From assembly GCA_902762955.1 (NCBI GenBank), contig CACWQH010000002.1, forward strand, positions 1-37,878: a stretch of DNA of 37,878 bases. The letters are read 5' to 3'. Every line of letters starts with the position of its first letter. Positions within the stretch are counted from its first letter, which is position 1. A program made the translations under genes and the position numbers. Origin of the DNA: an uncultured Lachnospiraceae bacterium. Lineage in GTDB: Bacteria; Bacillota; Clostridia; Lachnospirales; Lachnospiraceae. The notes beneath the pieces are model-generated. The model was not told the origin of the DNA, ran no database searches, and saw nothing but the letters and a program-made list of their open reading frames with translations. This document shows positions 2,756 through 22,886 of the stretch, piece after piece.

Positions 2756-3769
2756 TCATATACTCTTCATCGGCAGATTAGGCTCCGCATTCAAATCCCA
2801 GCCATGTCTGATTCCGGCCATGTACTCGTGATATCCGGCAACGCCTATCATCGCTGCGTTGTCGGTACAGAATATCGGGGACGGATTATAAAATGCAAAT
2901 CCGTTTTCCTCACAGGCTTCTCTCATAGCTTCTCTTAAGGATGAATTGGAAGCTACTCCTCCTGCCAAAGCTACACTTTTACAGCCATACGCTTTTGCCG
3001 CATTTATTGAATTATCCACCAGTACATCTATAACCGCTTTTTGGAAAGAGGCTGCCACATCTGCATTGTTTACCTCTATGCCCTTCATCTGACAACCGTT
3101 CAGATAGTTAAGTACTGCCGACTTAAGGCCGCTAAATGAAAAGTCATACGAATCCTCCATATGTGCCCTCGGGAATTCTATCGCATGAGGATTACCTTTC
3201 TTGGAAAGCTTGTCTATCTTTGGTCCGCCCGGATAACCAAGACCGATTGCACGTGCAACCTTGTCAAAGGCTTCGCCTGCCGCATCATCTCTGGTTCTTC
3301 CGACGATTTCATATTTGTTGTAATCAAGCACGTGCACAAGATGGGAATGTCCGCCTGATGCTACCATACACATATAAGGTGGTTTCAGGTCGGGATTTTC
3401 AATATAGTTTGCTGCTATGTGTCCCTCTATATGATGCACTCCCACCAAAGGTTTTTTCTTGGCATAAGCAATTGCCTTTGCAGCACTTACTCCAACTAAA
3501 AGAGCCCCGACAAGACCGGGGCCATAGGTTACTGCTACTGCATCTATATCATCCCAGCTAACGTCTGCTTCCTTTATGGCAGCTCTTATTACCTGATTTA
3601 CTTTTTCAACATGTTTTCTGGAAGCAATTTCAGGAACCACTCCACCGTATAATTTGTGAAGCTCTATCTGTGAATATATTATATTTGATTTTACCTTTCT
3701 TCCATCCTCCACAACTGCTGCCGCAGTTTCATCGCAGGAGGATTCTATTGCAAGTATATTTATGCTCAT
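2756..3769 (-). CDS. tsaD: tRNA N6-adenosine threonylcarbamoyltransferase (TsaD)
   Basis: Catalytic subunit of the t6A37 complex; it transfers threonylcarbamoyl from the TC-AMP intermediate to A37 of ANN-decoding tRNAs. The 337-residue ASKHA-fold protein shows the N-terminal [13 protein letters not shown] phosphate-1 motif, the metal-binding HxxxH (His113/His117 in VHHIEGH), the ASGGHSHLV block and the C-terminal CTDNAAMIG with the metal-binding Asp. Length is typical. TsaB and TsaE partners lie upstream on the same strand (6046-7254), so most of the t6A machinery is local; TsaC is not in the window. The start ATG 3769 gives the conserved N-terminus. Confidence 0.97.
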
Positions 3770-18845: not shown

Positions 18846-19616
18846 TCATTCCAGATTATGTTCCATCTGCATCTTTTGCCTTTCTTCCTTCATAGCTTCA
18901 ATTATGGTATTTCTGGCTTCAATTGCATCGTTCTTTGTCGCAGGCTCCACATCCTTTAACACATAATCAATGCCCATCTGCTCATACTTTGTCTTACCCA
19001 TATCATGGTAAGGAAGAACGTCCAATGCCTTAATATGTTTAAAGTGAGCAAGAAATGTTCCGAGTCTTTTTAGATATTCGGGAATAAGCGTAATTCCCGG
19101 AACAACCACATGTCTTATCCATATTTCCTTTTCCTGCTCGTCTAAAAACTTAAGGAAGTCAAATATATTATCACAAGGCTGCTTGGTAAGTTCGAGATGT
19201 TCCTTTGGGTCTATATGTTTTATATCAAGCATGATAAGATCTGTCGATTTCATAAGTCTTTCATACTTGGCAAGAGTTTCGGGGTTATCCCTTCTAAACA
19301 TTATTCCGGAGGTATCAAGGCATGTATGGATTCCCTTTTCTTTAGCCTTTTCAAAAAGCTCGATAAGAAAATCTATCTGAACCAAAGGCTCACCACCTGT
19401 TACGGTTATTCCGCCCTTTTTATAAAATTCCTTATATCCGTCATAATCCTTAAGTATCTCATCCGGTGTCATTTTAGTCGCACCCGTTGCTTCCCATGTA
19501 TCCGGATTGTGACAATACTTACATCTCATTGGACAACCCTTGACAAATACTACATATCTTGTGCCGGGTCCGTCAACGGTTCCAAAAGTTTCTATTGAAT
19601 GAATTAAGCCTTCCAT
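18846..19616 (-). CDS. pflA: Pyruvate formate-lyase activating enzyme
   Basis: Radical SAM enzyme that installs the glycyl radical on PFL. The 256-residue protein has the iron-sulfur motif CPMRCKYC (Cys28, Cys32, Cys35), the preceding GTVDGPGTRYVVFVKG typical of PFL activases, the SAM-binding TVTGGEPLVQ, and the later LDIKHIDPKEH and HVVVPGIT blocks. ATG 19616 follows a GGAAG-type site. It lies behind a strong terminator that closes the pfl operon and has its own extended -10 promoter, so its expression can be uncoupled from the PFL subunits. Confidence 0.96.
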   Translation of the reverse strand: MEGLIHSIETFGTVDGPGTRYVVFVKGCPMRCKYCHNPDTWEATGATKMTPDEILKDYDGYKEFYKKGGITVTGGEPLVQIDFLIELFEKAKEKGIHTCLDTSGIMFRRDNPETLAKYERLMKSTDLIMLDIKHIDPKEHLELTKQPCDNIFDFLKFLDEQEKEIWIRHVVVPGITLIPEYLKRLGTFLAHFKHIKALDVLPYHDMGKTKYEQMGIDYVLKDVEPATKNDAIEARNTIIEAMKEERQKMQMEHNLE

Positions 19617-19732: not shown

Positions 19733-19763
19733 AAAAAAAGAGACCGGCAAAACACCGGTCTCT
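19733..19763 (-). terminator. Terminator of the pfl operon
   Basis: Hairpin AGAGACCGG / CCGGTCTCT (arms 19755-19763 and 19739-19747) with a 7-nt loop, followed on the minus strand by a T-run (19738-19733). It lies 23 nt after the glycyl-radical subunit gene. Confidence 0.92.
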
Positions 19764-19786: not shown

Positions 19787-20026
19787 TTAAAGTGACTCAT
19801 GGAATGTACGTGAGATAACATCAGCCTGCTGCTCAGGAGTAAGCTTGATGAAGTTAACAGCATATCCTGAAACACGGATAGTAAGCTGTGGGTAGTTCTC
19901 AGGATGCTTCTGTGCATCAATTAATGTATCTCTGTTATATACATTAACATTTAAGTGATATCCACCTTTTTCTACATATCCATCTAACATTCCAACTAAG
20001 TTATCAATCTGCTGTGTACTAGCCAT
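19787..20026 (-). CDS. grcA: Glycyl-radical subunit of split pyruvate formate-lyase (GrcA/YfiD-like)
   Basis: A 79-residue protein equal to the C-terminal glycyl-radical domain of PFL. It contains [23 protein letters not shown] in continuous order and the radical motif RVSGYAVNF, with Gly54 as the radical site, and ends in the family-typical [11 protein letters not shown]. In E. coli such a protein (YfiD) is a spare part for oxygen-damaged PFL. Here the PFL core gene two positions upstream stops exactly where this domain begins, so this protein is probably an obligate subunit rather than a spare. AGGAGG precedes the ATG. PflA (gene downstream) would activate it. Confidence 0.92.
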
Positions 20027-20059
20027 TATATTATATCCTCCTTTTCGAAATTTAATATA

Positions 20060-20275
20060 TTAGTTATTCTCTTCAAATGCATCGTCTATGCCATCGTGAA
20101 GTGTAGGAACACTACATGCAAGATTGCCTTTTGCACAGTCCAGACATCCAAGGGTTTCAACCTCTTTACCTTCCTGATTAGGGTCATAGGACACATTGAT
20201 GTGTCCATGTCCCTTTTCAACCATGCCATCTAACATTGCGACGATGTCTTCTACATTGTTTAAACCATTATCCAT
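20060..20275 (-). CDS. Cys-rich small protein paralogous to the N-terminal part of the glycyl-radical subunit
   Basis: A 71-residue protein between the PFL core and the glycyl-radical subunit. Its first half, VEDIVAMLDGMVEKGHGHINV, aligns with [21 protein letters not shown] of the neighbour, so it is a partial duplicate of the domain start. Its second half is different: the glycyl-radical loop is missing and replaced by a segment with three cysteines (GCLDCAKGNLACS) and an acidic end. It therefore cannot carry the radical. A role in assembly, activation or protection of the split enzyme is inferred only from position and homology. ATG 20275 has AAGGAT upstream; TTG 20278 is an alternative. 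Confidence 0.8.
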   Translation of the reverse strand: MDNGLNNVEDIVAMLDGMVEKGHGHINVSYDPNQEGKEVETLGCLDCAKGNLACSVPTLHDGIDDAFEENN

Positions 20276-20301
20276 CAAATCAATCCTTTTTACTGTTAAT
20301 C

Positions 20302-22365
20302 TTAAAGCTTAAGGTCAACATCAAGGTCACCTGCGAATACCTGATCTTCCTTACCAAGAGCTCCAGGGATGATTGAGAATGTATTTGAAATACCATCCTG
20401 TGAATCCATATATGGAAGCTTAGCTACTGAAGAAAGTGAAGCTATCGCACCATGAGTATCTCTTCTATGCATTGGGTTAGCACCAGGAGCAAATGGTTCA
20501 CCATGCTTTCTACCGCAAGGAGTATCACCTGTATTCTTACCATAAGTTACGTTTGAAGTAATTGTAAGAATTGACATTGTTGGGAAGCCGTTTCTATATA
20601 CATGATGCTTTCTTAACTTATGCATAAATGTTGAAACAAGGCTTGCTGCAATCTTATCAACTCTGTCATCATTGTTACCATACTTAGGGAAGTCACCTTC
20701 TGTCTCATAACTTGTAACGATTCCCTGCTCATTTCTTATACACTTAACCTTAGCATACTTGATAGCTGAAAGTGAGTCTGCTACAACTGAAAGTCCTGCA
20801 AGTCCGGTTGCGAAGTATCTCTTTACATCTCTGTCATGAAGAGCCATCTGGATTCTCTCATAAGCATACTTATCATGCATGTAGTGAATGATGTTAAGTG
20901 CACTTACATAAACCTTAGCAAGCCATTCCATCATATCATCAAATTTCTCCATAACCTCATCATAATCAAGGTACTCTGAAGTGATTGGTCTGTACTTAGG
21001 AGCAACCTGTACACCTGTACACTCATCAACACCACCGTTGATAGCGTAAAGTAAACACTTAGCAAGGTTAGCTCTTGCTCCGAAGAACTGCATATCCTTA
21101 CCGATTCTCATTGAAGATACGCAACATGCGATACCATAATCATCACCGTGAACAGGTCTCATTAAGTCATCATTCTCATACTGGATTGATGAAGACTTGA
21201 TTGACATCTTAGCACAGTACTGCTTCCAGTTGATAGGAAGTCTTGTTGACCAGAGAACTGTCAGGTTTGGCTCAGGTGCAGTACCTAAGTTATCAAGAGT
21301 GTTAAGGTAACGGAAGCTCATCTTTGTAACAAGTGTACGTCCGTCTACACCCATACCGCCAAGTGACTCGGTAACCCATACAGGATCGCCTGCAAAGATT
21401 GAGTTATACTCAGGAGTTCTTGCGAACTTAACGCATCTTAACTTCATTACGAAGTGGTCAACGAATTCCTGAATCTGCTCCTCAGTAAATGTACCGTTCT
21501 TAAGATCTCTTTCTGCATAGATATCAAGGAAAGTAGAAGTACGTCCAAGTGACATAGCTGCACCGTTCTGCTCCTTAACTGCTCCAAGATAACCAAAGTA
21601 TAAGAATTGGATAGCTTCCTGAACATTCTTAGCAGGCTTTGAAATATCAATGCCATAGAATGAAGCCATCTTCTTTAATTCCTGTAATGCACGAATCTGC
21701 TCTGCAATTTCTTCCTTGCCTCTTATAACGTCATCAGTGTAAACAGTACCAAATGATTCCTTTTGAATCTTCTTGTCTTCAATAAGGAAATCTATACCAT
21801 AAAGAGCAACTCTTCTGTAGTCACCGATGATACGTCCACGTCCATAAGCATCAGGAAGACCGGTAATGATGTGGTTTGTACGACATCTTCTGATCTCATC
21901 ATCATAAACATCAAATACACCTGCGTTATGAGTCTTTCTGTGAGTAGTGAAGAACTCAACTATCTCAGGATCAACCTTATAGCCGTTATCTTCACAAGCC
22001 TTCATAGCCATACGGATACCACCGTATACGTTCATACCTCTCTTGAAAGGTTTGTCAGTCTGGAAACCAACGATTTTTTCCTTACTCTTATCCAGGTAAC
22101 CTGCCTGATGTGAAGTAAGAGTAGATACAACCTTAGTATCCATATCTAAAACTCCGCCTGCTTCTCTTTCTTTCTTGGAAAGATCAAGAACCATCTGCCA
22201 TAAATCCTTAGTATCCTGTGTAGGTCCTGCCAGGAAAGAATCATCACCCTCATATGGAGTATAGTTTCTCTGAATGAAATCTCTAACCTCAACCTCTTTC
22301 TGCCACTTTCCGCCTACAAATCCATCCCAGCTGTCTGTCTCAAGTGCATCCATTTTTAACAACAT
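20302..22365 (-). CDS. pflB: Pyruvate formate-lyase core subunit, lacking the glycyl-radical domain
   Basis: Non-oxidative cleavage of pyruvate plus CoA to acetyl-CoA and formate. The 687-residue protein has the PFL landmarks in order: [10 protein letters not shown] near the start, [23 protein letters not shown] (about 168-190) in continuous order, the active-site cysteines Cys414-Cys415 in [17 protein letters not shown], and [20 protein letters not shown] near the C-terminus. Normal PFL is about 750 residues and ends with the RVSGYAV radical domain; here the chain stops after [23 protein letters not shown], just before that domain. The missing part is encoded by 19787-20026. ATG 22365 follows AGGAGG. 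The gene is first in the operon behind a strong promoter with GTATAC operators. Confidence 0.95.
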
Positions 22366-22422: not shown

Positions 22423-22437
22423 GTATACATTGTATAC
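22423..22437. promoter_or_regulatory. Double GTATAC operator in the pfl leader
   Basis: Two copies of the palindrome TGTATACA (GTATAC cores at 22423-22428 and 22432-22437), centre to centre 9 nt apart. They lie about 20-35 nt downstream of the predicted pfl transcription start, where a bound repressor would block transcription. Confidence 0.55.
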
Positions 22438-22462
22438 AAGGATAACTTCTGTAGATGCCTAT

Positions 22463-22491
22463 ATTATAAGGTTAAATTGTATACACGTCAA
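22463..22491 (-). promoter_or_regulatory. Promoter of the pfl operon
   Basis: Minus-strand TTGACG (22491-22486), 17-nt spacer, perfect TATAAT (22468-22463). A GTATAC palindrome (22479-22484) sits in the spacer next to the -35, so a bound protein would directly hinder RNA polymerase. Confidence 0.8.
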
Positions 22492-22532
22492 CTTCATAAA
22501 AGCATTTTTTTGTACTTTTTTCAGTACACTAT

Positions 22533-22549
22533 TTGTATACTGTATACAA
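22533..22549. promoter_or_regulatory. Upstream palindromic operator TTGTATACTGTATACAA
   Basis: A perfect 17-bp palindrome centred on T22541 with two overlapping GTATAC cores (22535-22540, 22542-22547). It lies about 80 nt upstream of the pfl start and about 22 nt before the -35 of the divergent DUF1858 gene, so it could serve both promoters. The shape TTGTATACAA is compatible with GntR-family or similar dimeric regulators; I cannot name the protein. Confidence 0.55.
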
Positions 22550-22667: not shown

Positions 22668-22886
22668 ATGGCAAAACAAGTAACTAAAGACATGTTAATC
22701 TACGAAATACTTGAAATCGATCCGGGCAATGCCGCAATCCTTATGGCATCCGGTATGCATTGTGTAGGCTGTCCGTCTTCTGCGATGGAATCTCTGGAGG
22801 ATGCCTGCATGGTTCACGGTATGGACGTAGATGATGTAATTTATTCTATAAACGAGTATCTTGAAAGAAAAGAAGCAGCAGTTTAA
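22668..22886 (+). CDS. DUF1858 / hybrid-cluster-protein-associated redox disulfide protein
   Basis: A 72-residue protein that is almost entirely one DUF1858 domain, named for its association with hybrid cluster (prismane) proteins. Visible signature: VTKDMLIYEILEIDPGNAAILMASGMHCVGCPSS with a CxxC pair (Cys32 and Cys35), then an AMESLEDACMVHGMDVDDVIYSINEYL helical end. A redox or metal role is suggested by the CxxC, but biochemical function is unknown. AAGGAGG precedes the ATG. It is divergent from the pfl operon and shares its operator region, and is followed 30 nt later by the BI-1 family gene. Confidence 0.9.
   Translation: MAKQVTKDMLIYEILEIDPGNAAILMASGMHCVGCPSSAMESLEDACMVHGMDVDDVIYSINEYLERKEAAV

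Follow-up and report, generated by a model that had tools for sequence, protein, structure and literature searches.

The window analysed here is a stretch of 37,878 nucleotides from the genome of an uncultured Lachnospiraceae bacterium (GenBank assembly GCA_902762955.1, contig CACWQH010000002.1), and its minus strand encodes a pyruvate formate-lyase (PFL) in separate parts. The catalytic core was found without its glycyl-radical domain (GRD), the GRD is encoded by a gene of its own, and between the two lies a small third gene, here called the mini, which carries a conserved cysteine pair. In other genomes the cysteine module occurs instead as a tail of the core. The best explanation of the whole, held with moderate confidence, is an obligate multi-part PFL with a cysteine module that is tied to the split. 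PFL is a main pyruvate route in many gut Clostridia, and oxygen destroys its radical.

Separate genes for the core and the radical domain

The core gene (20302..22365, minus strand) encodes 687 residues and stops short of the radical domain. When compared with the NCBIfam model TIGR01255 (PFL1, 744 positions), the core covered positions 2-666 and scored 1103.7 bits alone, against a cut-off of 994.2. The GRD protein (19787..20026, minus strand, 79 residues), which contains RVSGYAV, covered positions 665-744, and the two proteins together tile the PFL model. The GRD is therefore not in the same chain as the window core, as the preliminary description of this DNA had proposed. The GRD protein is also a member of the NCBIfam family NF038360 (GrcA3), with 160 bits against a cut-off of 158, and its radical glycine is, by hand count, Gly54 within RVSGYAV. 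The catalytic pair Cys414-Cys415, said earlier to be intact, was found in the core as IACC (codons at 21121..21126, position counted by hand). The end of the core had been placed after GALGKEDQ and has to be corrected, as the real end lies 12 residues further; the tail beyond GALGK has 15 residues and no cysteine. The gene order on the minus strand is core, mini, GRD, and a Shine-Dalgarno-like sequence is present before each of the three. The intervening mini gene and these separate Shine-Dalgarno-like sequences led to the rejection of a fusion of core and GRD by read-through or frameshift.

A second, full-length PFL was sought in the genome of the window, which is 88.9% complete and divided among 81 contigs, and none was found. 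The split core was the only PFL-like core, and the one other Gly_radical match was judged by eye to belong to NrdD, on the strength of its sequence and of an adjoining NrdG-like gene. The survey covered 200 genomes of the same family, that of the window included. The GrcA3 profile matched at E<=0.001 in 171 of these, a count that includes full-length PFLs, and a short separate GRD frame was present in at least 80, again including the window's genome, with at least 89 short-frame matches. A PFL1 match at E<=1e-150 was obtained in 79 of the 80 separate-GRD genomes, several of which are incomplete: 76 had GRD-less cores only and 3 also had a full-length PFL1, while in the 80th (G022) the core was broken off at a contig edge. 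Because 76 of the 80 show only a GRD-less PFL1 core, the GRD protein should be required, and comparison of the genomes makes an obligate two-part enzyme very likely. The earlier view that the GRD protein is not a mere spare part is upheld by these counts. The order core, mini, GRD is also present in strain-named records, for example Acetatifactor muris DSM 23669 (L166), and the split PFL is common in many gut Clostridia and not peculiar to the genome of the window.

The GRD loci numbered 90, made up of 89 other loci and the window. Ten without a core in the stretch were left out, which gave 80 split loci for analysis. All ten come from genomes that have a split core at another place, and one of them (L123), which begins where its contig does, is perhaps not a real orphan. 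In two of the ten, the core-less second GRD gene adjoins a thioredoxin gene (L258, 8001-9499, genome G080; L119, 4468-5104, genome G190), and in G080 it is also near a Crp-type regulator gene. A core-less GRD beside thioredoxin is a possible stress-made spare.

A cysteine-bearing third gene

The region between core and GRD (20060-20278), overlooked in the preliminary description, holds the conserved mini. The gene spans 20060..20275 on the minus strand and encodes 71 residues if read from an ATG, or 72 if the start is a TTG at 20278. The protein has a first half that resembles that of the GRD (IVAMLDGMVEKGHGHINV) and a second half (GCLDCAKGNLACSVPTLHDGIDD) with a conserved cysteine pair where the GRD has its radical glycine. 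In an alignment of 28 of the 51 minis, from which two short ones were excluded, the invariant residues were D16, G24, H25, C47, A53, C54 and P57. The GrcA3 profile matched 24 of the 28 at E<=0.1 (best 8.6e-7), and the window mini scored 16.5 bits against NF038360. No RVSGY radical loop was present in the 28 aligned minis; the Pfam family Gly_radical matched two of them at E<=0.1 (best 0.01), and no useful Pfam match for the mini was obtained. No convincing mini-like chain was found in the Protein Data Bank (PDB), the best E value being 0.34.

The mini behaves as a maintained gene in that pN was lower than pS in all five comparisons made (0.17-0.23 vs. 0.55-0.88). When the mini of a relative (L118) was searched against genome contigs, 433 stretches encoded relatives. 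Among the best 80 of these, the mini was followed by the GRD in all 80, with the core before them in 76 and the activase after them in 74. The 299 genomes of a phylum-wide sample yielded complete minis in the window's genus only, and two more matches were GRD halves within long frames. One locus from a genome of another family (L226) has the order core, GRD, mini. Selenocysteine in the mini was considered and rejected, as the TGA in the match of L131 proved to be the stop that follows ...EGYDD (frame judged by eye).

The cysteine module in cis or in trans

The 80 split loci fell into two main types. In 51, a mini is adjacent and the core's own tail has no cysteine; in 27, no mini is adjacent and the core tail has at least two cysteines. 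The remaining two (L253 and L254) have neither, and both genomes carry a mini with the full cysteine motif at another locus. No mini was found in the 27 tail-type genomes, each searched whole, and a cysteine tail together with a mini was never seen in the 80 split loci or in these whole-genome searches. Among the few mini-type genomes examined for a second mini, G002 has a further partial match.

The relationship of the two forms was evaluated with a profile of the cysteine half of the mini. The profile recognised 24 of 35 core tails, none of 58 short core ends and none of 20 full-length PFLs, and shuffled tails gave no match in 100 rounds. The set of 35 excludes L109, the true end of which has no cysteine. 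An earlier count with the same profile, made with the ends of L220 and L233 unparsed, gave 23 of 34 tails, and at most one match among the shuffles; the L220 core spans two frames. From these profile matches the mini tail and the core tail are judged to be homologous. The core tail begins at the point of the chain where the radical domain would start.

A search across the class gave a match in 25 of 391 genomes. Five genomes were already included and five long-frame genomes were left out, so that 15 loci were examined. Tails were present in eight (L214-L220 and L223) and minis in five (L224-L228). No mini was found in 28 genomes selected for carrying a full-length GRD frame. Split PFLs are thus nearly always accompanied by the cysteine module, whether it is encoded separately or attached to the core as a tail, and a functional coupling of the module to the split state is highly probable.

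Evolution of the split and of the module

Phylogenetic analysis placed the split cores in one clade, re-fused proteins included (SH-aLRT 98 in a 90-row tree; 100/98 in a 36-row tree). Four sequences that were too short or broken (L091, L120, L220 and L221) were left out of the 90-row tree. On well-supported branches, the mini and tail labels show at least 6 and 3 changes (4 and 3 in the 90-row tree). A re-fused clade (L248 and L260-L263) lacks junction cysteines, and its genomes contain no mini; L247, also fused, retains a linker with three cysteines. Two or more cysteines at the junction were seen in L247 alone among the 31 full-length proteins, and L270 has one; 20 of these junctions were parsed and 11 were read by eye.

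A second split lineage was found outside the main split clade. It consists of L222, from one genome of another family of the class, and the viral locus L279, which form a clade with 100/100 support. Their cores stop at SLGKDD or SLGKDED, the GRD adjoins as a gene of its own, and no cysteine module was seen with either core. On the viral contig of L279 (109,813 bases) the core lies at 923-2977 and the GRD at 2995-3228. In all, 12 viral loci have a GRD, and a search of the viral contigs with two peptide patterns found no mini. Two other viral loci, L278 and L288, are identical stretches of two contigs; in L278 the GRD is followed by a core broken by two in-frame TGA codons, which are perhaps a recoded stop. 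In viral L281 (332,864 bases) and L282 (230,252 bases), a stand-alone GRD lies beside NrdD and a radical SAM gene, and L282 further shows matches to an RNA ligase/tail-fibre attachment family and a polynucleotide kinase family.

A proposed mechanism and its alternatives

In the proposed scheme, the core would provide the substrate site and the catalytic cysteine pair. The 79-residue GrcA3 protein, charged by PflA, would supply in trans the missing strand, the glycyl-radical loop and the C-terminal helix, and once cut by oxygen it could be exchanged for a fresh one. Renewal of only the oxygen-damaged radical part, as the preliminary description had envisaged, would be plausible in view of the ten core-less GRD loci and of the E. 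coli variant described below. Passages of PMC8683613 and PMC12338860 describe how PflA places the radical on the GRD glycine, where oxygen cuts the chain, and how in PFL repair PflA charges a small glycyl-radical protein that serves the core in trans. E. coli PflB G734A is reported in part of PMC12338860 to form formate when GrcA is present.

The radical-domain site of a GRD-less core can stand empty, and the lineage may keep the cysteine-pair module, as core tail or separate mini, for this reason. The mini keeps a GRD-like first half and carries a cysteine pair where the radical loop would be. The module would occupy the vacated site and protect the catalytic cysteine pair, by a reversible disulfide or as a thiol reductant, until a new GRD takes its place. 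Such a stand-in and guard would explain the tie between module and split, the replacement of one form by the other in cis or in trans, and the loss on re-fusion. It is put forward tentatively as the mechanism of the module. The fuller picture is more tentative by a shade: a three-part enzyme whose empty core is plugged and redox-guarded by a decoy radical domain. In it, GRDs would be swapped and outlived by the core, and the decoy could be carried in cis or in trans and dropped on re-fusion. An arrangement with the mini on one protomer and the GRD on the other was considered and is not favoured, as an argument against half-site reactivity in vivo is made in part of PMC12338860.

A number of observations weigh against an obligate enzyme with a protective module. 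Of the 35 core tails, eleven miss E<0.01 with the mini profile, seven being CACCEP-like, and the profile does not recognise the cysteine linker of L247. Two of the 51 minis (L043 and L068) stop after the first CxxC. The mini diverges faster than its neighbours, with 71% identity to a same-genus relative compared with 96% for both core and GRD. Two of the 15 class-search loci are without the module, L221 on a partial contig and L222 of the second split lineage, and no mini was found in the genomes of either. Some of the label changes go to neither form or to a fused protein rather than from mini to tail or back. The AlphaFold models were of low confidence: that of the mini had a pLDDT of 55.6 with a helix at 6-20 only, and that of the core, from a shallow alignment, had 47.4; a Foldseek search with the core model returned PFL, as was already evident from its sequence. 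Because the second split lineage shows no module, the claim that every split needs one is weakened, and the module is a trait of the main lineage and not of splitting as such. Finally, competition between a stand-in and the GRD is to be expected, and an adaptor that aids GRD binding fits nearly as well.

Such an adaptor, in which the cysteine tail or mini replaces a docking element absent from the shortened core and aids binding and activation of the GRD, is the alternative that survives best, and it is considered somewhat unlikely. According to passages of PMC8683613, cutting E. coli PFL short at 695 leaves YfiD binding undetectable and lowers the radical yield 32-fold, and residues 696-733 are proposed as the recognition element. 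The split cores stop before even that point, and the re-fused clade, which has no need for recognition, lacks the module. However, the GRD-like half of the mini would be expected to compete for the same strand position, and no module was seen in the second split lineage (L222 and viral L279).

The possibility was also considered that the module is a metal or Fe-S accessory subunit comparable to the beta and gamma subunits of benzylsuccinate synthase (BSS). A small cysteine-bearing partner of a glycyl radical enzyme has a precedent in BSS beta, which is reported in part of PMC12590467 to promote thiyl radical formation. The 28 minis have only two invariant cysteines, where four conserved ones would be expected for a [4Fe-4S] site, so that such a site in one chain is unlikely; the spacing in the tails is variable and no Fe-S family was among the matches. 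This alternative is improbable.

That the GRD protein is a plain YfiD-like spare for a complete PFL elsewhere is suggested by the same kind of NCBIfam name and by the three of 80 genomes that also have a full-length PFL1, but the GRD gene adjoins the core and the other 76 classified genomes have GRD-less cores only, which makes this reading very improbable. Even less credit is given to the mini as a functionless, decaying copy of the GRD gene. Its homology to the GRD in the first half and its fast evolution would fit, yet the cysteines, the Gly-His and the proline are invariant in 28 minis, pN is below pS, the mini is complementary to the core tail in its distribution, and relatives are encoded in the 433 stretches. 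An assembly or sequencing error that broke a single PFL gene is a negligible alternative even for a genome in 81 contigs, given the separate GRD in at least 80 of 200 genomes, the Shine-Dalgarno-like sequence of each gene and the strain-named records.

Flanking genes and signals

A hairpin resembling an intrinsic terminator, with 11 pairs and a T run, lies directly 3' of the GRD gene (19739..19763, minus strand; pattern match), and two such hairpins were found in the window vs. 1.9 expected from shuffles. Past this hairpin, on the same strand, is a PflA-type radical SAM activase gene (18846..19616; TIGR02493, 288.8 bits). Upstream of the core is a promoter-like consensus match, TTGACG-17-TATAAT (22463..22491, minus strand); the 18 promoter-like sites in the window are at about shuffle level (15.8 expected). 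Five of the six TTGTATAC sites in the window cluster at 22430-22549, also upstream of the core, with 1.6 expected per whole window, and the clustered sites include two palindromic pairs. The cluster is possibly an operator. The divergent neighbour (22668-22886, plus strand) encodes a DUF1858 or hybrid-cluster-associated redox disulfide domain. Of 42 loci with an adjacent mini, 22 have a divergent neighbour of this type within 1 kb, vs. 5 of 29 without one, nine loci with short flanks being excluded.

Significance and comparison with known systems

A core made without its radical domain means that the renewal of glycyl radical enzymes after exposure to oxygen can be tested with natural parts, and a natural two-part PFL with a small, replaceable radical domain would be a useful start for engineering. 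No recognisable account of the split PFL or the mini was found in the open-access literature. The split is nonetheless partly known already, in that NCBI has named a family for the GRD and structures of GRD-less cores exist; the cysteine module tied to the split state is a component without a name.

The closest solved relatives of the core are PDB entries 38la and 38lb, both labelled 'Formate acetyltransferase', and neither is among the PDB matches of the GRD. The chain of 38la ends at SLGKED, similar to the cores of the second split lineage, while 38lb continues with a tail that starts GECDMC. The GRD family NF038360, the cut-off of which the 79-residue protein of the window passes, is named autonomous glycyl radical cofactor GrcA3. 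As in E. coli PflB with GrcA/YfiD, and in the Y06I protein of phage T4, as far as the passages of PMC8683613 and PMC12338860 describe these systems, a small glycyl-radical protein charged by PflA would serve a PFL core in trans. In contrast to the GrcA/YfiD repair of a complete PFL cut by oxygen, the core considered here is encoded without the GRD, and mostly no complete PFL1 was found. The module can also be likened to BSS beta and gamma, as described in part of PMC12590467, in being an extra small protein that would tune a glycyl radical enzyme; unlike these subunits, which have [4Fe-4S] clusters, the mini has two invariant cysteines and a half that resembles the GRD.
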